Shown here piece by piece: positions 805 through 57,465 of a stretch of DNA of 64,000 nt. Origin of the DNA: an uncultured Modestobacter sp. (GTDB lineage Bacteria; Actinomycetota; Actinomycetes; Mycobacteriales; Geodermatophilaceae); NCBI RefSeq assembly GCF_947486615.1, contig NZ_CANKUD010000009.1, positions 124,001 to 188,000 of the forward strand, in the 5' to 3' direction. Made by a program: the position numbers and the translations under genes. The first letter of the stretch is position 1. Each line of letters starts with the position of its first letter. Below the pieces are notes generated by a model that ran no database searches, was not told the origin of the DNA, and saw only the letters and a list, made by a program, of their open reading frames with translations.

Positions 805-1824
805 ATGGACCTGCAGACGCTCTGGTTCGCCGCGGTCGCGGTGCTCTGGACCGGTTTCCTGCTGCTGGAGGGCTTCGACTTCGGGGTCGCCGCGCTGATC
901 CCGGTGATCGGCCGCAAGGCCGCCGACCGGCACCTGATGCTGCGCAGCATCGGCCCGCTCTGGGACGGCAACGAGGTCTGGCTGATCACCGCGGCCGGCG
1001 CGGTCTTCGCCGCCTTCCCCGGCTGGTACGCCACCTGGCTGCCGGTGCTCTACCTGCCCTTCGTCCTGGTGCTGTTCGGCCTGATCATCCGAGCGGTGGC
1101 CTTCGAGTGGCGGCACTCGCACCACACCGCGCAGTGGGACAGCACCTGGACCCACGTGATCACCGCCGGCTCGCTGATCGCCGCGCTCGGCGTGGGCGCC
1201 GCCCTCGGTGGCACCACGCTGGGCCTGCCGATCGACGGTGACGGCATCCGGGTGGGCGGTGCGTTCGCCGGCGTCACCTGGTCCGCGCTGCTCGGCGGGG
1301 TCGCCCTGCTGGCCTGGTCGACGGTGCACGGCGCGGTGTTCCTGGCGCTGAAGACCGACGGCCCGGTGCGGGTCGCCGCCCGCCGGTTCGCCGTCCGCTG
1401 GTCACCGGTCGCCGCCCTGCCGCTGCTGGCCTGGGCGGGGCTGGTGCACCTGCGGTCGGGCACGTTCGTCACCGGCGCGCTGTGGCTGGTCGCCGCGCTG
1501 GCCGTGCTGGTCTCCTGGACCCGGATCCGGGTCGACCGCGAGGGCCAGGCGTTCACCGCCTGGGCGGTGGTGATGCTGGCCTCCGCCGCGACGATCTTCG
1601 GGGCCGTGTACCCGGTGGTGGTCGTCTCCTCGATCGACCCGGCGTTCTCGGTCACCATCGCCGAGGCCTCGGTCAGCGACTACACGCTGACGATCATGAC
1701 CTGGGCGGCCGGTGTCGGGCTGCCGGTGGTGCTGGGCTACCAGACCTGGACCTACTGGGTGTTCCGCAAGCGCCTCACCGCCGAGCCGGAGACCCCGCAC
1801 ACCGAGGAGCCGGTGAACGCATGA
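805..1824 (+). CDS. cydB: Cytochrome bd oxidase subunit II (CydB)
   Basis: Second membrane subunit of the bd oxidase, 339 residues, the usual family length. The N-terminus carries the CydB hallmark LLLEGFDFGVAAL and then PLWDGNEVWLITAAGAVFAAFP, followed by about eight hydrophobic helices. The ATG at 805 is preceded by an AGAAGAG ribosome-binding-like stretch. The TGA stop overlaps the ATG of cydDC in ATGA (1821-1824), which indicates translational coupling. The C-terminus ends in a short charged tail. The subunit supports assembly of the b/d haems with CydA. Assignment rests on family motifs and operon context. Confidence 0.96.
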   Translation: MDLQTLWFAAVAVLWTGFLLLEGFDFGVAALIPVIGRKAADRHLMLRSIGPLWDGNEVWLITAAGAVFAAFPGWYATWLPVLYLPFVLVLFGLIIRAVAFEWRHSHHTAQWDSTWTHVITAGSLIAALGVGAALGGTTLGLPIDGDGIRVGGAFAGVTWSALLGGVALLAWSTVHGAVFLALKTDGPVRVAARRFAVRWSPVAALPLLAWAGLVHLRSGTFVTGALWLVAALAVLVSWTRIRVDREGQAFTAWAVVMLASAATIFGAVYPVVVVSSIDPAFSVTIAEASVSDYTLTIMTWAAGVGLPVVLGYQTWTYWVFRKRLTAEPETPHTEEPVNA

Positions 1825-4800
1825 CCTCCCCGCACCCCACCGGCCATGTTGGCCAACATGGCCGCTCGGCCGGGATGGCCGCGTCCCCGGCGCCCGGCCA
1901 GGTCGGCGAACCTGGCCGCGCCGGGCGGGGGCCGTTGGGGGCGCTGGCGGGGGTGCCCGGGCTGACCGGGGCGCTGGTGCGGGCCGCGGTGGTCGCGCTG
2001 GTGCAGACCGCCGGGGTGGTGCTGCTCGCCGCCGGCCTGGCCCGCGCGGTCGCCGACGTCGCGGCCGGGACGACGCCGGGGACGGCGCTGCTGGTGGCTC
2101 TCGCCGGGGTCGCGGTCCGGGCGCTGGGGTCGTGGGCCGGTGGCGTGCTGGCCACCCGGGACGCCCGCCGGGCCGAGGACACCCTGCGCCGCCGGCTGCT
2201 GGACCGGCTGCTGGCCGGCGAGGGCGAGGCGGTCACCGCCGCCGGTGGCAGCGGCCCGGCCGCGGTGCTGGCCACCACCCGGCTGCACGACCTCGGCCCG
2301 GCGCTGGCCACCTACCTGCCGGCGCTGGCCCAGACGATCGTCGTCCCGCCGGTGGTGCTGGTGGCCATCGGCGTCACCGACTGGCTCTCCGCACTGCTGG
2401 TCGCGGTCACCCTCCCGCTGGTCCCGCTGTTCATGGCGCTGGTCGGGCTGCACACCCGGGACGAGACGGCCGAGGCCGCCCGCGCGCTGGACCGGATCGC
2501 CGGGCACGTCGCCGAGCTCGTGCGCGGGCTGCCGGTGCTGGTCGGCCTGGGCCGCGCCGCCGACCAGCTGGCCGCGCTCGCCGAGCTGGGCGAGTCGCAC
2601 CGCCGCCGCACGCTGGCCACGCTGCGGATCGCCTTCCTCTCCTCCCTGGTGCTGGAGGTGCTCGCCACGCTGTCGGTCGCGCTGGTCGCGGTGACCGTCG
2701 GGATCCGGCTGGCCGACGGGACGATGAGCCTGGACGTCGGCCTGCTCGCCCTGCTGCTCGCCCCGGAGGCCTTCGCCCCGCTGCGGGCGCTGGGCGCTGC
2801 GCACCACGCCTCCGAGGACGCCGCCGAGGCCGCCGCGGCCGCCCGCGCGGTGCTCGCGACCCCTGCGCCCCGGCCGGTCCTGGCCGTCCCGCCGGCCGGT
2901 GAGCTGCGCGGGCTGACCATCACCGGCCTGACCGTCGCCTTCCCCGGCCGCGGCGCTCCCGCGGTCGAGCGCCTCTCCTTCGCCGTCGAGCCCGGCGAGC
3001 TGGTCGCCCTGCGTGGGCCCAGCGGCTCGGGCAAGTCCACCGTGCTCGCCGTCCTCGCCGGGCAGCTGCTGGACGGCGGCACCGCACGGGTGGACGGCGC
3101 CGTGCTGGCCCCGGCAGACGTCGCCGTCGTGCCGCAGTTCCCGCACACCGTCGCCGACACCGTGCTCGACGAGCTGCGCCGGCACGCCGGGGAGGTGCCG
3201 GAGGAGCGGGCCACCGACCTCGCCGACACCGCGCTGGGCTGGGTGGACGCCGCGCACCTGCGCGACCGCGCCTGCCGCACCCTCTCCCCCGGCGAGCTGC
3301 AGCGGGTCGCGCTGGCCCGGGCTCTGGTGCGGGTGCAGCGCGGCGCCCGGGTGCTGCTGCTGGACGAGCCGACCGCCTCCCTCGACCCCGCCGCCACCGC
3401 CCGGGTCACCGAGCTGCTGGTGCGGCTGCGCGGCTCGCTCTGCACCGTGCTGGTCACCCACGAGCCGGCGCTGGCCGCGCTGGCCGACCGGGCCGTCGAC
3501 CTGCCCGGCCGCACCGCCGTCCCGGCGTTGACCACCGTGCCCGGGCCCGAGCGCGCCCCGGCGGTCGCGCCGGCCGGTGAGTCGCCGGGTGCCCCCACGA
3601 GCGGCGCCACGAGTTCGGCCGCCCCGACCACCGGGCTCTCCTGGCCGCGGCGGGCGGTCACCCGCGCCGTCGGCTACGGCGCGGCGTCCAGCGCCTTCGG
3701 CGTCGCGCTCACCGCGGTGTCGGGCTGGCTGATCGTCCGGGCCGCCGAGCAGCCGCCGATCCTCACCCTGATGGTGGCCATCGTCGGCGTCCGGGCCTCG
3801 GGGCTGGGCCGGGCACTGTTGCGCTGGCTGGAGCGGCTGGCCAGCCACGACGCCGCCTTCCGGCTCGCCTCGGACACCCGGCTGCGGCTGTGGCGGGCGC
3901 TGATCGCACAGGGCCCGGCCGCCGACCGCACACCGGGCCGCGCGCTGGCCCGGCTGGTCGGCGACGTCGGGCTGCTGCAGGACCTCTCGGTCCGAGCGGT
4001 TACCCCGCCGCTGGTCTCCGGCATCGTGCTCGCCGGGACGACAGCGGTGCTGACCCTGCTCGAACCGAGGGCCGGCGCGCTGGTGGCCGCGGTTCTGCTC
4101 GCCGCGGTGCTCGCCGTCCTCGGGGTGCACCGGTGGGCCGACCGCGGAGTGGCCCGCACCGCCGCCGAGCTGCAGACGGTGACCCTGCGGGAGACCGCCG
4201 GGACGCTGGAGGCCGCCGGCGACCTCCGGGCGCACGGGCTGGCTCCGGCTGCGGCCGACCGGCTCGACGCGCTGGGCCGCCGCCAGGGCCGCGCTGCCCA
4301 GGCCGGTGCCGCGGCGGCCGCGGCCGGCGACGCGATCGCCGTGCTGGCCTCCGGATCGGCCGCCGTGCTCGCACTGTGGGCCGGGGCCGCGGCGGTGCGC
4401 GCCGGGGAGCTGAGCGCCCCGGTCGCCGCCGTCCTCGCGCTGGCCCCGCTGGCGCTGCTCGAGCCGCTGACCGCGCTGGGCGCCGCCCGCCGGCACCGGC
4501 TGGCCTGGGCCGACGCGCGGGCCCGGGTGGAGGCGGTGCTGGCCGAGCCGGTCGCCGCCGACCCCGCCCCGGCCGACCGGCTCACCCCGCCGCGGCCGGT
4601 GCGCGAGCTGGCCACCGAGCACCTCACCGCCGGCTGGCCCGGCCGCCCCGGCGTGCTGCGCGACCTCGACCTGGTCGCCACCGCCGGCCGCGGCTGGCTG
4701 GTGGTCACCGGGCCGTCCGGGTCGGGCAAGTCGACGCTGCTGTCGGTGCTGATGGCCGCACTGCGGCCGGCATCGGGCGACCACGTGCTCAGCGACGGCG

Positions 4801-5297
4801 GCCGGCCGGTGCCGGTGGCCCGGCTGACCCGGGACGACGTGCAGGCCGCGATCGCCTGGTGCCCGCAGGACGCGCACGTCTTCGACGCGCCGCTGCGGGC
4901 CAACCTGGCGCTGGCCCGGCCGCGCGGCGAGCTCGCCGGCCCGGCGGGTGAGCAGGCGATGCGGGCGGCCATGACCGACGCCGGGCTGGATGCCCTCCTG
5001 GTCTCGCTCCCCGCCGGCCTGGACACCCCCGTCGGCGCCGGCGGCACGTCGCTGTCCGGCGGGGAGCGGCGGCGGCTGGCCGTCGCGCGGGCGCTGCTGG
5101 CCGACCGCGAGGTGGTGCTGCTCGACGAGCCGACCGCGCACCTGGACCCGCCGACCGCGGCGGCGCTGGTGGCGGACCTGCGCCGGGCGCTCGCCGGGCG
5201 GCTGGTCGTCTGCGTCACCCACGACCGCGACCTCGCCGGGGACGACGACACCCTGGTCGACCTCGGCACGCACGCACAGGTGGCGGCGCGCCGCTGA
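1821..5297 (+). CDS. cydDC: Fused CydD-CydC ABC exporter for cytochrome bd assembly
   Basis: A single 1158-residue polypeptide containing two complete ABC half-transporters in the order TMD1-NBD1-TMD2-NBD2. The family exports thiol reductants (cysteine, glutathione) and binds haem, which bd oxidase maturation requires. NBD1 has Walker A GPSGSGKST near residue 399, signature LSPGELQRVALARAL and LLLDEPTASLD. NBD2 has GPSGSGKST near residue 964, LSGGERRRLAVARAL and LLDEPTAHLD. TMD2 starts with the CydC-like SGWLIVRAAEQPP. The start overlaps the cydB stop (ATGA). Residues 8-33 are unusual: they are encoded by two copies of a 24-bp palindromic element (GHVGQHGR and GQVGEPGR) 54 bp apart, ahead of the first transmembrane segment. 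In many bacteria cydD and cydC are separate genes; fusion is known in actinomycetes. Confidence 0.93.
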   Translation: MTSPHPTGHVGQHGRSAGMAASPAPGQVGEPGRAGRGPLGALAGVPGLTGALVRAAVVALVQTAGVVLLAAGLARAVADVAAGTTPGTALLVALAGVAVRALGSWAGGVLATRDARRAEDTLRRRLLDRLLAGEGEAVTAAGGSGPAAVLATTRLHDLGPALATYLPALAQTIVVPPVVLVAIGVTDWLSALLVAVTLPLVPLFMALVGLHTRDETAEAARALDRIAGHVAELVRGLPVLVGLGRAADQLAALAELGESHRRRTLATLRIAFLSSLVLEVLATLSVALVAVTVGIRLADGTMSLDVGLLALLLAPEAFAPLRALGAAHHASEDAAEAAAAARAVLATPAPRPVLAVPPAGELRGLTITGLTVAFPGRGAPAVERLSFAVEPGELVALRGPSGSGKSTVLAVLAGQLLDGGTARVDGAVLAPADVAVVPQFPHTVADTVLDELRRHAGEVPEERATDLADTALGWVDAAHLRDRACRTLSPGELQRVALARALVRVQRGARVLLLDEPTASLDPAATARVTELLVRLRGSLCTVLVTHEPALAALADRAVDLPGRTAVPALTTVPGPERAPAVAPAGESPGAPTSGATSSAAPTTGLSWPRRAVTRAVGYGAASSAFGVALTAVSGWLIVRAAEQPPILTLMVAIVGVRASGLGRALLRWLERLASHDAAFRLASDTRLRLWRALIAQGPAADRTPGRALARLVGDVGLLQDLSVRAVTPPLVSGIVLAGTTAVLTLLEPRAGALVAAVLLAAVLAVLGVHRWADRGVARTAAELQTVTLRETAGTLEAAGDLRAHGLAPAAADRLDALGRRQGRAAQAGAAAAAAGDAIAVLASGSAAVLALWAGAAAVRAGELSAPVAAVLALAPLALLEPLTALGAARRHRLAWADARARVEAVLAEPVAADPAPADRLTPPRPVRELATEHLTAGWPGRPGVLRDLDLVATAGRGWLVVTGPSGSGKSTLLSVLMAALRPASGDHVLSDGGRPVPVARLTRDDVQAAIAWCPQDAHVFDAPLRANLALARPRGELAGPAGEQAMRAAMTDAGLDALLVSLPAGLDTPVGAGGTSLSGGERRRLAVARALLADREVVLLDEPTAHLDPPTAAALVADLRRALAGRLVVCVTHDRDLAGDDDTLVDLGTHAQVAARR
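1841..1918. repeat. Paired 24-bp palindromic elements inside the cydDC 5' coding region
   Basis: 1841-1864 is a perfect 24-bp palindrome with half-site CGGCCATGTTGG. 1895-1918 is a diverged copy with half-site CGGCCAGGTCGG. Start-to-start distance is 54 bp, and both are translated in the same frame as GxVGxxGR. Similar pairs occur in eutC (8251-8328), and a single copy lies upstream of rtcB (57442-57465). Confidence 0.8.
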
Positions 5298-7514: not shown

Positions 7515-8342
7515 TCAGGCAGCGCCGGGCGGGAGCGCCGTCCCCTCGTCCTTGAGGACGACGCCGGAGGCGCCCAGCCGGCGGGAGGCCTGCAGCAGCG
7601 CGACCAGGGTGTCGGCGGCCTGGGCGTAGCCGAGCCCGTGCGGGGGCCGGACGTTGGAGATGCAGTTGCGCTCGGAGTCCGCCCGCCCGGGCCGCGGGCC
7701 GTGCGTCAGGTACAGCCCCAGGCTGTCGGCGGAGCTCAGCCCCGGCCGCTCCCCCACCAGGACGACGACGATTCCGGCGCCCAGCGCCGCGCCGATCGGG
7801 TCACCGAGCGCCACCCGCGCCTGGTGGGCCAGCACGACCGGGGCGACCGACCAGCCGGGCAGCCGGTCGAGGACGGCGGCGACCGTGCCGGCGGCGTGCT
7901 CGTGCACGGCACGGGGCGACAGCCCGTCGGCGACCACCAGCGCCAGGTCGTGCGGTCCGCCGGGCAGCTGCGTGTCCGCGGCCGGCTGCCGGCCCAGGTC
8001 GGGGCGCTGCAGGTAGGTCGTGCGGTCCGGTGCCCGGCTGTGCACCTCCAGCACGTCGAGCCCGACGCCGGCCGCGGCGAGCGCGGCGCGCACCCGGTCG
8101 GCGTCCAGCGCGGTGTGCACCGCGTCCCGGGCGGCCGCGTGCGCCGCCCGGAACTCCAGCTCCCGCGCCGTGGGCAGCCCGTCCCCGGCCCGCCCCAGCG
8201 CCACCCGTGCCCGGGTCGCCTCCCGCAGCACCGCCCACGGGTCGTCCGTCCGGCCATGTTCGCCAACATGGCCGTCGTGGGCCGACGGCCGGTCCGCCGT
8301 GTTCCGGCCATGGTGGCCAACATGGCCGTTGGGGGTGGTCAT
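7515..8342 (-). CDS. eutC: Ethanolamine ammonia-lyase small subunit
   Basis: EutC, 275 residues, partner of EutB in the adenosylcobalamin-dependent deamination of ethanolamine to acetaldehyde and ammonia. Family segments include ELEFRAAHAAARDAV, THGPRPGRADSERNCISNVRP and GLGYAQAADTLVALL. The start overlaps the eutB stop (ATGA at 8339-8342). The first 31 residues look foreign: they contain GHVGHHGR (6-13) and GHVGEHGR (24-31), the translations of two palindromic elements with the same 54-bp spacing as in cydDC. Canonical EutC similarity begins only after about residue 33 (PWAVLREATRARVALG). No microcompartment shell genes are near, so the pathway is probably cytosolic. Confidence 0.94.
   Translation of the reverse strand: MTTPNGHVGHHGRNTADRPSAHDGHVGEHGRTDDPWAVLREATRARVALGRAGDGLPTARELEFRAAHAAARDAVHTALDADRVRAALAAAGVGLDVLEVHSRAPDRTTYLQRPDLGRQPAADTQLPGGPHDLALVVADGLSPRAVHEHAAGTVAAVLDRLPGWSVAPVVLAHQARVALGDPIGAALGAGIVVVLVGERPGLSSADSLGLYLTHGPRPGRADSERNCISNVRPPHGLGYAQAADTLVALLQASRRLGASGVVLKDEGTALPPGAA
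8251..8328. repeat. Paired 24-bp palindromic elements inside the eutC 5' coding region
   Basis: Copies lie at 8251-8274 and 8305-8328. Each differs from the perfect cydDC copy at a single position and keeps the CGGCCATG outer arms. Start-to-start spacing is 54 bp, the same as in cydDC. On the coding (minus) strand they encode GHVGEHGR and GHVGHHGR. Confidence 0.8.
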
Positions 8343-9748
8343 CGGGCGGCGGCGAGGAGGGTGCGGGCGGCGGGGGCGTCGGGGGTCAGCTCGCGGACGC
8401 GGCCGGCGTCATCGAGCAGGTCCATCCGGGCCAGCCACGCCTCGAACTCCGGCGCCGGGCGCAGGTCGAGCACCGAGCGGGCGGTGAGCACGTCGGTGAA
8501 CGACAGCGACTGGTAGTGCAGCATCACGTCGTCCGAGCCGGGGACGGCGATGACGAACGCGCAGCCCGCCGCACCGAGCAGCAGGGTGAGGACGTCGGTG
8601 TCGTCGCCGTCGACGTCGGTGTGGTTGGTGTAGCAGACGTCCACGCCCATCGGCAGGCCGAGCAGCTTGCCGCAGAAGTGGTCCTCCAGCCCGGCCCGGA
8701 TCACCTGCTTGCCGTCGTAGAGGTACTCCGGGCCGATGAACCCGACGACGGTGTTGACCAGCAGCGGGTCGAAGTGCCGGGCGACGGCGTAGGCACGGCA
8801 CTCCAGGGTCTGCTGGTCGACCGGGCCGTCGACGCCGTGGTGCGCGTCGGCCGACAGCGCCGAGCCCTGCCCGGTCTCGAAGTAGGTGACGTTGTCCCCC
8901 ACCGTCCCCCGGCCCAGCGCCAGCGCGCCGGCGCGGGCCTCGGTGAGCTGGTCCAGCGTGATCCCGAAGCCGCGGTTGCCCGCCTGCGTGCCGGCTACGG
9001 AGGCGAACACCAGGTCGACCGGGGCGCCGGCCTCCAGCGCCCGCAGCGTGGTGGTCACGTGCGCCAGCACGCAGGACTGGGTGGGGATCTCGTAACGGCT
9101 GATCACCGCGTCGACCAGCTCCAGCAGCGCGATCGTCTGCGCCGGGTTGTCGGTGGCCGGGTTGATCCCGATGACGGCGTCCCCGGCGCCGTGCAGCAGG
9201 CCGTCCAGGATCGAGGCGGTCACCCCGACGGCGTCGTCCGTGGGGTGGTTGGGCTGCAGCCGGGAGGCCAGCCGGCCGGGCAGGCCGAGGGTGCCGCGCA
9301 GGCCGGTGACCACCCGGGTCCGCCGGGCGACGGCGACCAGGTCGGCGTTGCGCATGAGCTTGGAGACAGCGGCGACCATCTCCGGGGTCAGCCCGCGGGC
9401 CAGGGCGGAGATGGCCACCTCGTCGCGCTCGGCGGCCCGGGCCAGCAGCCAGTCGCGGAACTCCCCCACCGTCAGCGAGGCGACCGGGGTGAAGGCGGCG
9501 CCGTCGTGGGTGTCCAGGATCAGCCGGGTGACGTCGTCCTCGTCGTAGCCGACGACCTGCTCGGTGAGGAAGGTGGCCAGCGGGACGTCGGCGAGCACGT
9601 GCTGGGCGGCGACCCGCTGGGCCTGCGACTCCGCGGCGACCCCGGCCAGCACGTCCCCGGAGCGGGCCGGGGTGGCCTTGGCCAGGACGTCGGTGAGCGA
9701 GCGGAACTCGTGGGTGTGCCCGCCCAGCGTCGTCCGGCGGACGGTCAT
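8339..9748 (-). CDS. eutB: Ethanolamine ammonia-lyase large subunit
   Basis: EutB, 469 residues, the catalytic TIM-barrel subunit that binds adenosylcobalamin and ethanolamine. Recognisable family blocks are VIGINPATDNPAQT, VLAHVTTTLRALEAGAPVDL, SVAGTQAGNRGFGI, YFETGQGSALSADAHHG and VGFIGPEYLYDGKQVIRAGLED. Length fits the family. ATG at 9748 overlaps the stop of the upstream permease (ATGA), and the gene's own stop overlaps eutC, so permease-eutB-eutC form one coupled operon. No cobalamin riboswitch was seen upstream. Confidence 0.96.
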   Translation of the reverse strand: MTVRRTTLGGHTHEFRSLTDVLAKATPARSGDVLAGVAAESQAQRVAAQHVLADVPLATFLTEQVVGYDEDDVTRLILDTHDGAAFTPVASLTVGEFRDWLLARAAERDEVAISALARGLTPEMVAAVSKLMRNADLVAVARRTRVVTGLRGTLGLPGRLASRLQPNHPTDDAVGVTASILDGLLHGAGDAVIGINPATDNPAQTIALLELVDAVISRYEIPTQSCVLAHVTTTLRALEAGAPVDLVFASVAGTQAGNRGFGITLDQLTEARAGALALGRGTVGDNVTYFETGQGSALSADAHHGVDGPVDQQTLECRAYAVARHFDPLLVNTVVGFIGPEYLYDGKQVIRAGLEDHFCGKLLGLPMGVDVCYTNHTDVDGDDTDVLTLLLGAAGCAFVIAVPGSDDVMLHYQSLSFTDVLTARSVLDLRPAPEFEAWLARMDLLDDAGRVRELTPDAPAARTLLAAAR

Positions 9749-11208
9749 CTGACGTCCTCCTCGGCGGCGGCCAGCAGCGCGAACTCCTCCTCGGGGGCGG
9801 AGGCGACCAGGTGGTGCCGGCTGTAGAACGCGAACCAGCCGATGAACACGGCGTAGGCGGCCAGCGTCCAGCCCGCGGCGACCGGGTCGACCAGGAACGT
9901 CGCCAGCACCGCGGCCGCGGCGAGCACCAGCGCGACGCCGGTGGTGACCGTGCCGCCGGGCGTGCGGTAGGGCCGGGGCAGGTCGGGCTCGCGGCGGCGC
10001 AGCACGATGTGGCTGACCATCATCAGCACGTAGGAGACCGTCGCGCCGAAGACGGCCATGTTGAGCAACATGGCCCCCTGGCCGGTCAGCGAGAGGGCGA
10101 AGCCGATCGCGCCGGGCACCAGCAGCGCCAGCACCGGCGCCTTGCGGGCGTTGGTCACCGACAGCGCGCGGGGCAGGTAGCCGGCGCGGGAGAGCGCGAA
10201 CGTCTGCCGGGAGTAGGCGTAGATGATCGAGAAGAAGCTGGCGACCAGACCGACCAGGCCGGCGTAGTTGATCACCGTGGTCAGCCCGCTGGACGCCCCG
10301 GCGACCTCGAGCGCCTCCACCGGCGGGTTGCCGCTGGCCGACATCGCCTCCGAGCCACCCGCCCCCGCGGTGAACACCAGCATCAGCACCGCGAGCACCA
10401 GCAGCAGGCCCATCGCCGCGACGATCCCCCGCGGCATGCTCCGCGCCGGGTCCCTGGCCTCCTCGGAGGCCAGCGGCACGCACTCCACCGCCAGGAAGAA
10501 CCAGATGGCGAACGGGAAGGCCGCCCAGATGCCGATCAGACCGAAGGGCAGGAACTCCGAGGCACCGGCGGCGTCGGTCGGCGCGATGTCGGTCAGGTTG
10601 GCCCCGTCGAACGCCGGCACCGCCCCGACCAGGTAGAAGACCAGCCCGGCCACCGCGACGGCGGCGATCACCAGCATCACCTTCAGCGCCTCGCCGACCC
10701 CCAGCAGGTGGATGCCGATGAACAGGGCGTAGGCGGCGAGGTAGACCCACCAGCCGTCGGTGATGCCGAACAGCCCGAGCGACTCGACGTAGGCGCCGAT
10801 GAAGGTGGCGATCGCGGCCGGGGCGATCGCGCACTCGATCAGCACCGCCACCCCGGTCGCGTAGCCACCCCACGGACCCAGCGCCCGGCGGGCGAAGGTG
10901 TAACCACCACCGGCGGTCGGCAGCGCCGACCCCAGCTCGGCCAGGCCGAACACCATCGCCGAGTACATGACCGCCATGAGGACGACGGCGATCAGCAGCC
11001 CACCGAAGCCGCCCTCGGCCAGACCGAAGTTCCAGCCGGCGTAGTCACCGGAGATGACCGCGGCGACGCCGAGGCCGGCCAGCAGCACCCAGCCGGCGGT
11101 GCCCCCGCGGAGCTGCCGCTTCTCCAGGTAGCCGGCGTCCACGGACTCCGCCTCCACCCCCCGGCCCGGTCCGTGCGCGGTGCGGGCGGCTGCGGGCTCG
11201 ACGGTCAT
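9745..11208 (-). CDS. eat: Ethanolamine permease (APC superfamily)
   Basis: 487 residues, about twelve hydrophobic segments, amino acid-polyamine-organocation family. It imports ethanolamine through the inner membrane for EutBC. Family segments include LRGGTAGWVLLAGLGVA and GDYAGWNFGLAEGGF near the N-terminus and AMLLNMAVFGATVSYVLM centrally. A good ribosome-binding site (GGAGGA, 8 bases before ATG 11208) supports the start. It is the first gene of the eut operon. The 101-base gap to the upstream gene must hold the promoter; it contains an inverted repeat (11299-11311) and a GAACACG half-site on the same strand. Confidence 0.88.
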   Translation of the reverse strand: MTVEPAAARTAHGPGRGVEAESVDAGYLEKRQLRGGTAGWVLLAGLGVAAVISGDYAGWNFGLAEGGFGGLLIAVVLMAVMYSAMVFGLAELGSALPTAGGGYTFARRALGPWGGYATGVAVLIECAIAPAAIATFIGAYVESLGLFGITDGWWVYLAAYALFIGIHLLGVGEALKVMLVIAAVAVAGLVFYLVGAVPAFDGANLTDIAPTDAAGASEFLPFGLIGIWAAFPFAIWFFLAVECVPLASEEARDPARSMPRGIVAAMGLLLVLAVLMLVFTAGAGGSEAMSASGNPPVEALEVAGASSGLTTVINYAGLVGLVASFFSIIYAYSRQTFALSRAGYLPRALSVTNARKAPVLALLVPGAIGFALSLTGQGAMLLNMAVFGATVSYVLMMVSHIVLRRREPDLPRPYRTPGGTVTTGVALVLAAAAVLATFLVDPVAAGWTLAAYAVFIGWFAFYSRHHLVASAPEEEFALLAAAEEDVR

Positions 11209-57441: not shown

Positions 57442-57465
57442 CGGCCATGTCGGCCAACATGGCCG
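57442..57465. repeat. 24-bp palindromic element upstream of rtcB
   Basis: Same element as in cydDC and eutC with one mismatch. Outer arms are CGGCCATG/CATGGCCG. It lies 31-54 bases upstream of the rtcB start, outside annotated coding sequence. Confidence 0.8.

Follow-up and report, generated by a model that had tools for sequence, protein, structure and literature searches.

Why should two near-perfect palindromes lie in frame within the first 31 codons of eutC, and why should a pair with the same spacing recur in the cydDC reading frame? The following features of the window, the 64,000-nucleotide stretch of Modestobacter DNA analyzed here, bear on these questions.

805-1824, plus strand: cydB, which served as a search query
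1821-5297, plus strand: cydDC reading frame (MTSPHPTGHVGQHGR...), from the ATG that overlaps the cydB stop codon
1841-1864: perfect palindrome copy, 16 nt past the cydB stop codon and in frame with the downstream cydDC frame
1895-1918: second cydDC copy, 54 bp away from the perfect one and degraded (4 mismatches)
7515-8342, minus strand: putative eutC reading frame, from the ATG that overlaps the eutB stop codon (ATGA)
8251-8274: near-perfect 24-bp palindrome copy CGGCCATGTTCGCCAACATGGCCG with a type C head (ATGTTSGCSAACAT), the distal one in the eutC frame
8275-8304: 30-bp spacer between the two eutC copies
8305-8328: near-perfect 24-bp palindrome copy CGGCCATGGTGGCCAACATGGCCG with a type C head, 10 nt past the eutB stop codon
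8339-9748, minus strand: eutB, ethanolamine ammonia-lyase large subunit (PF06751), whose stop codon overlaps the next start as ATGA
10053-10076: weak match with the center TGAGCA within a coding region (GAMLLNMAV), probably a chance occurrence
57442-57465: single copy with 1 mismatch, the sole cluster between divergent genes among the 51 clusters of this genome

The pair that the initial annotation described in eutC is real: the copies start 54 bp apart, and both are in frame with the minus-strand ORF from 8342 to 7515, after the ATGA overlap. The same annotation placed the same pair in cydDC, where the distance is indeed exactly 54 bp, although only one of the two copies is perfect and the other is degraded. 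The name eutC is presumptive, being taken from that annotation and from the position of the frame after eutB; the name cydDC has the same source, and 805-1824 is the gene that we take to be cydB. Conservation of eutC between species starts near DPWAVLR, past the segment with the palindromes. A search of the window with the 22-bp palindrome core GGCCATGTTGGCCAACATGGCC, allowing up to 3 mismatches, yielded 5 matches, compared with none in 100 shuffled sequences.

The repeat is an almost perfect palindrome of about 24 bp, with the center T-S-G-C-S-A (S = G or C) in most of its types. The source genome (4.70 Mb; denoted G000 below) contains 84 copies of the core with up to 3 mismatches and none of a reversed-pattern control; 77 of the 84 were placed individually, in the stretches analyzed and in the window. 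Outside its center the core is nearly invariant, and 51 of the 154 arms of these 77 copies have C at position 10. As many as 21 of the located copies are carried by one 292-kb contig, C5 (e.g., loci L091 and L092), for whose chromosomal place no strong match was obtained in the compared stretches of the related genome G008. Among the 49 stretches of the genome contig database that contain the exact core, 48 carry titles that name Modestobacter altitudinis, M. excelsi, M. muralis or Geodermatophilaceae URHA0031; the remaining one (L047) is a 7.2-kb contig from an Anaerolineae metagenome bin, a match for which chance, transfer and misbinning are possible alternatives. With up to 2 mismatches, the core was detected in 9 of the 22 other genomes of the genus (1 to 50 copies each), in one of 12 other members of the family (a single match) and in none of 24 members of the order; at this threshold the copy number across the genus is patchy, ranging from 0 to 73. 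Viral contigs contained no exact core match, and a search of Rfam with four loci (L001, L006, L010 and L014; E-values up to 5) produced sub-threshold hits only, none reaching the gathering score. The possibility that the repeat is a DNA-uptake sequence was rejected because half-sites outside the palindromes, although slightly more frequent than permuted words, show no large excess over them (CGGCCATGTT, 5 occurrences against a mean of 0.8 and a maximum of 8; GGCCATGTTC, 6 against a mean of 0.6 and a maximum of 10).

The stop codon is the anchor of the palindromes. Genes were called with a purpose-written codon-score script for which the stops are firm and the starts are not (it put the eutC start at 8231, whereas comparison across species supports 8342). 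With these calls, 17 of the 51 clusters lie between two minus-strand genes, 14 between two plus-strand genes and 15 between convergent genes; another 3 are within called genes, a single one separates divergent genes and one has no assignment. For 46 clusters, the distance to the nearest 3' gene end has a median of 10 nt, and it does not exceed 15 nt in 30 of them (one outlier is 2022 nt away); counted per copy, the median distance to the stop codon is 15 nt, with 34 of 65 copies within 15 nt. Other head types in four relatives (G009, G004, G017 and G021) are distributed similarly, with 14 clusters between minus-strand, 12 between plus-strand and 13 between convergent genes, 5 inside genes and 3 of 49 between divergent genes; 33 of 48 of these copies, and 50 of 61 copies in relatives with the C head, are within 15 nt of a stop codon. 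The nearness of many copies to the start of the next gene follows from the tight packing of operons. Most of the adjoining genes have metabolic functions. Of the 50 neighbor genes scanned (of 58), five encode EutB (8339-9748 in the window), the alpha subunit of lysine 5,6-aminomutase, CobO, CbiC and CobN (L076, L097, L101 and L102), which we take to be cobalamin-linked families; our informal impression is that this is more than would be expected.

At three operon junctions, eutB-eutC, cydB-cydD and cobO-cobB, the inserts keep their place and reading frame while the palindrome itself is wholly replaced between species (ATGTTGGCCAACAT, AAATGGCCATTT, AAGTCGCGACTT, AAGTGGCCACTT and others). The eutB-eutC junction is readable in 21 of 23 species (all but G012 and G016). 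With types assigned by eye and variants counted in, type C is present in G000 (two copies), G013 (two), G011 and G022; the AAATGGCCATTT type in G001, G002, G003 and G021; the AAGTCGCGACTT type in G004, G005, G014, G018 and G019; the AAGTGGCCACTT type in G006 and G010; the AGATGGCCATCT type in G015; another type in G009 and G020; and none in G007, G008 and G017. In all 21 species, according to the script, an in-frame ATGA or GTGA runs into eutC (in G020 the script chose an inner start, and the frame from the eutB stop codon is open as well; in G007 and G015 the junction reads, by eye, TGATGA), so that the in-frame placement noted in the initial annotation is correct and old. In G003 (L134), inspection by eye places one palindrome apparently in frame inside the 3' end of eutB, before the stop codon, and a second one in eutC.

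The cydB-cydD junction, inspected by eye in 18 species, contains a head of this kind in 12 (with another center in G011), another palindrome in G017 and none in 5, and the frame shifted back by one base relative to the cydB stop codon is open in all 18. Between cobO and the following gene, presumably cobB, the 19 species compared have a pair of palindromes in 8 cases, a single palindrome in 4, another insert in 5 and nothing in 2. In all 17 inserts, the frame shifted back by one base relative to the cobO stop codon closes exactly at the ATGA or GTGA of the next gene, and a GTG overlapping the cobO stop codon was noted in three sequences. In at least G008, G003, G018 and G014 (L255, L256, L247 and L251), the cobO slot holds longer inverted repeats, non-palindromic by eye, which are similar in length and in which the frame closes at 101-107. 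Three further junctions, recognized by flank similarity, carry doublets of unlike heads in two species, with distances of 54/54, 52/54 and 42/53 bp. Not all sites are old, given that the doublet at the scpB junction was seen by eye in G000 alone among 21 species. In the source genome, the ORF through the palindrome is open at 25 of 26 codirectional junctions; at 75% GC, most such frames would by our estimate be open by chance, and we therefore put weight on the frames compared across species (21 of 21, 18 of 18 and 17 of 17).

The eight cobO pairs each consist of one type within a species, the two copies being identical at 20-24 of 24 positions; the heads are of type A in G001, G005, G009 and G021, C in G006 and G013, D in G010 and B in G019. 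The spacing is exactly 54 bp in all eight pairs even though their spacers can be as little as 30% identical, which is strong but not clean evidence of selection on the spacing because the reading frame also limits the length of this insert. The claim of the initial annotation that spacers are dissimilar holds in general; the exception is this junction, where the spacers of G001, G005, G009 and G010 are recognizably alike (70-77% identity in five of the six comparisons, 57% in the sixth). The pair in G010 has a D head, yet its spacer is 70-77% identical to those of three species with A heads.

The heads are amplified across entire genomes. The exact AAATGGCCATTT palindrome occurs 42 times in G009, 36 in G001, 23 in G002 and 6 in G000, and the exact AAGTCGCGACTT palindrome 19 times in G004 and 15 in G014, with no occurrence of reversed-head controls in any genome of the genus; several genomes contain more than one head type. 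Another 15 exact AAGTCGCGACTT copies are found in G024, which belongs to another genus, so that head type B also exists outside Modestobacter. The head types do not follow the four-gene FastTree phylogeny of 18 genomes, in which G000 is placed beside species with A and B heads and apart from the type C genomes G006, G007 and G011 and from G013; this distribution could be due to transfer, to in-place conversion or to repeated origin. Among 59 clusters of relatives, 27 matched the 483 kb of G000 DNA used for comparison, which was chosen for carrying copies and so gives no unbiased rate of common sites. Of these 27, 20 are at a junction with a G000 copy, no more than 66 bp from the predicted place, and 7 are not; one of the seven is a B head in the G000 gap where URHA0031 has a C head, and for another (L037 compared with L084) the gap in G000 lacks a palindrome. 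It is conceivable, although we advance this only tentatively, that doublets and dozens of copies switch heads in concert between species, retaining place, frame and the 54-bp spacing, either because a transposase-free converting mobile palindrome overwrites its rivals or because a trans-acting binder changes its specificity, in a bacterial analogue of a PRDM9-like chase. If so, this would be a case of same-slot head exchange in concert across a genus.

Other repeats were encountered in one relative. The sequence GTTCCACGTGGAAC, which we take to resemble a parS site, occurs four times in the first 101 kb of G008 (L140 9414, L141 15506, L143 18006 and L145 565), and three loci of the same genome (L145, L146 and L151) contain stems like CTCTGCCCCC(ACCT/GATG)GGGGGCAGAG, perhaps a separate repeat family.

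The distances between adjacent copies in G000 (n = 27, with the weak cydD pair included) span 31 to 88 bp, as follows: 31 (three), 33, 34 (two), 41 (two), 42, 43 (three), 52, 54 (four), 62, 64 (two), 66, 67 (two), 75, 80 and 88 (two), so that 5 of the 27 are at 52-54 bp. Pooling all species under a stricter palindrome test gave 38 distinct pairs, of which seven (31, 31, 41, 41, 43, 64 and 88 bp) were set aside as likely tandem duplications. The other 31, a sample of doublets rather than a whole-genome tally, comprise 18 pairs at 52-55 bp, 6 at 31-34, 2 at 42-43 and 5 at 62-88; by flank similarity they represent 28 junctions, 16 of which hold a pair at 52-55 bp. Spacing close to 54 bp, highlighted by the initial annotation, is thus preferred but not the only one, and this non-random spacing marks the pair as a real unit. 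The cobO-cobB insert is missing in its entirety in 2 of 19 species. Three pairs of clearly unlike heads (C with D, and A with B twice) are all spaced at 31-33 bp; a fourth mixed pair, at 54 bp in G009 (L164), combines an A head with a variant of A. We rejected a common spacer motif: sampling of 20 spacers, a set that omitted 5 further cobO spacers, returned CCGTCGCGTCCC with a score of 166 against 135 (sd 5.9) for mononucleotide shuffles, and its score also exceeded that of the regions flanking single copies (142.5, sd 6.0, largest 155.0), but the motif does not stand out from random genomic 30-mers (164 vs. 152.5, sd 8.2, the largest of 16 sets reaching 171.5).

We consider it probable, with moderate confidence, that the eutC pair belongs to a REP-like family of gene-end palindromes, which occur singly or as doublets of about 54 bp, and to which we ascribe mobility or conversion and an effect as hairpins. 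Such repeats would spread and overwrite each other in the manner of small mobile or gene-converting DNA, with no RAYT involved, and their physiological effect might be that of a gene-end hairpin that blocks 3' exonucleases or, alternatively, slows transcription or ribosomes at the junctions within operons and at convergent ends. A doublet of one type could form a single long hairpin with 24-nt arms and a loop of 28-31 nt, similar to a REPIN. In operons, the inserts sit in open, in-frame linkers, which either lengthen the downstream protein at its N-terminus or constitute a mini-ORF with a stop codon that overlaps the next start; through these overlapping stop-start linkers ribosomes could pass, such that translational coupling would outlive the insertion. 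Folding of the eutC pair as RNA joins both copies (-56 kcal/mol, z -4.1). Extended pairing of the flanks was rejected: the excess complementarity past the core is confined to the first two positions, although the mean contiguous extension is 1.48 compared with 0.68 in shuffles (largest shuffle mean 1.17). Against the REP-like reading, the proximal eutC copy alone folds unremarkably (z -1.5; 15 of 200 shuffles are equally good), and the base changes do not support action as RNA: there is no wobble bias on the mRNA strand (20 G-U vs. 18 A-C mismatches, with 24 transversions, four groups summed), and just 2 of the 37 departures from a consensus pair in G000 are compensated. Furthermore, no RAYT that could act as the mobilizer was detected in the 23 genomes of the genus, a GTAG or CGTC tag at a constant position is lacking, the three pairs of unlike heads at 31-33 bp are unable to form the long hairpin, the 7 of 27 matched clusters have no G000 copy nearby, and the spacing classes hint at a protein bound to DNA.

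This last point is the basis of an alternative that we regard as rather doubtful, namely that the palindromes are DNA operators, each bound by a homodimeric roadblock or nucleoid protein whose specificity varies by species, and that doublets spaced by whole helical turns set two dimers on one face, as the initial annotation suggested. The distances fall into classes (31-34, 42-43, 52-55 and 62-67 bp), and their periodicity compared with uniform distances (p 0.0002) is mainly due to the 52-55 class; without the pairs at 50-56 bp, the 13 that are left still give a p value of 0.011, and the minor classes are suggestive of phasing. In a single case, the doublets at one junction, 42 bp in G000 and 53 bp with another head in G009, differ by about one turn. 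The lack of wobble bias, the near invariance of the sequence within G000 and the constancy of the cobO spacing whatever the head also fit a binding site, although the reading frame may in part fix this spacing and looser palindromes contribute distances of 46 and 50 bp. Close species differ in head at the same sites, however, so a binder would require matched change at dozens of sites; moreover, mixed-head pairs exist, a location after stop codons, and not at promoters, is atypical of operators, and the doublet is equally foldable as one hairpin with 24-nt arms.

Quite unlikely, in our opinion, is a purely selfish repeat without any effect, the gene-end location of which would be what selection left after removing other insertions. 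The patchy copy number across the genus and the departure of the head types from the species tree would suit such a repeat. However, 20 of the 59 clusters of relatives share a junction with a G000 copy, and the retention of the 54-bp spacing in cobO despite the divergence of the spacers suggests selection on the element.

The palindromes could also be ordinary intrinsic terminators that share a hairpin sequence by happenstance, a reading that we disfavor as improbable despite the placement at gene ends and between convergent genes and the strong hairpins predicted for two long-stemmed sites (z -7.0 and -7.6). No T-run follows the palindrome: at outward positions 4-10 of the G000 copies, T accounts for 7-17% and G for 47-59%, and the flanks are G-rich outwards on both sides (C-rich to G-rich across the palindrome). 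Ribosomes have been reported to repress an E. coli terminator located near a stop codon (PMC4824070, in the part of the text available), and the 30 of 46 clusters within 15 nt of a stop codon lie in that range. In addition, the palindromes occur within eutB-eutC and cobO-cobB, where the linking frames are open, and chance sharing sits poorly with a single sequence repeated 84 times. As for the preference for gene starts and the regulatory pair proposed in the initial annotation, the in-frame copies among the initial codons of eutC and cydD are in its favor, but it is highly improbable given that the short, narrow distance is to the stop codon, which the copies track, and that 15 of the 51 clusters are convergent, with no gene start at hand; that annotation would have given up its proposal in the absence of both a preferred spacing and a start preference, and only the latter is absent.

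Returning to the REP-like reading, the palindromes of Modestobacter match the broad definition of REPs, being short many-copy palindromes that are extragenic near 3' ends, rarely between divergent genes, and form dimers. The REPs of the GTAG and CGTC superfamilies (Di Nocera et al. 2013, PMC3733652) are, in the portion of that text accessible to us, likewise palindromes of 20-40 bp with many copies and species-specific families, found downstream of ORFs in convergent or unidirectional gaps, as dimers and heterodimers and with NH2-terminal copies. The same text locates REPs less than 20 bp from 3' ends and also in NH2-terminal coding ends, and gives spacers of dimers as mostly 20-100 bp, some alike in length but unlike in sequence; E. 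coli REPs less than 16 nt from a stop codon are reported, in the available part of another source, to lower translation (PMC12306157). CGTC REPs too are said to lack a dedicated transposase (PMC3733652), a similarity to the RAYT-less palindromes described here. Unlike GTAG and CGTC REPs, the latter have near-perfect symmetry and no tag at a fixed place: in 154 outward flanks of G000 copies, GTAG occurs once (4.9 expected), CTAC not at all (1.7), CGTC 19 times (24.0) and GACG 43 times (22.0), and this sole excess is scattered over positions, with no more than 6 at any one. REPINs resemble the doublets in comprising two short repeats in a fixed arrangement that are foldable to one hairpin with a variable loop (PMC3116915 and PMC2817692, as far as the accessible text goes), but each Modestobacter arm is itself a palindrome. 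Mobilization by a REPIN/RAYT system was rejected: no RAYT (Y1 transposase, PF01797) was detected in the 23 genomes of the genus, with 3 of 59 positive in the whole set and matches to the positive controls in 5 of 14. Rickettsia palindromic elements likewise insert in frame in a protein end, according to the accessible part of PMC3733652, whereas the Modestobacter units are 24 bp long, sit at operon junctions and are mostly extragenic.

The TRIT terminators of Mycobacterium tuberculosis, also an actinobacterium, are repeated conserved hairpins at gene ends; we liken them to the present palindromes by description, not by sequence, and they differ in that the latter have no T-run. REP-like repeats have been described mainly from Proteobacteria (PMC3733652), and the available text of this work does not mention actinobacter-, Frankia, Streptomyces, Kineococcus or Geodermatophil-. 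A BOX-PCR study of Geodermatophilaceae exists (PMC2625358, seen in part), and the open-access literature, judged from search listings, yielded no account of REPs either from this family or from actinobacteria. Collectively, these comparisons point to a REP-like family that has neither tag nor RAYT, keeps its places and changes its sequence, REPs as a kind being known and this variant being new. In this high-GC actinobacterial genus, related species have different palindromes in one and the same genomic slot, which makes it testable how short palindromes with no known transposase spread and homogenize and whether those at gene ends act as RNA or as sites bound on DNA, and the in-frame linkers illustrate a way for an operon to take up an insert with its stop-start overlap intact.
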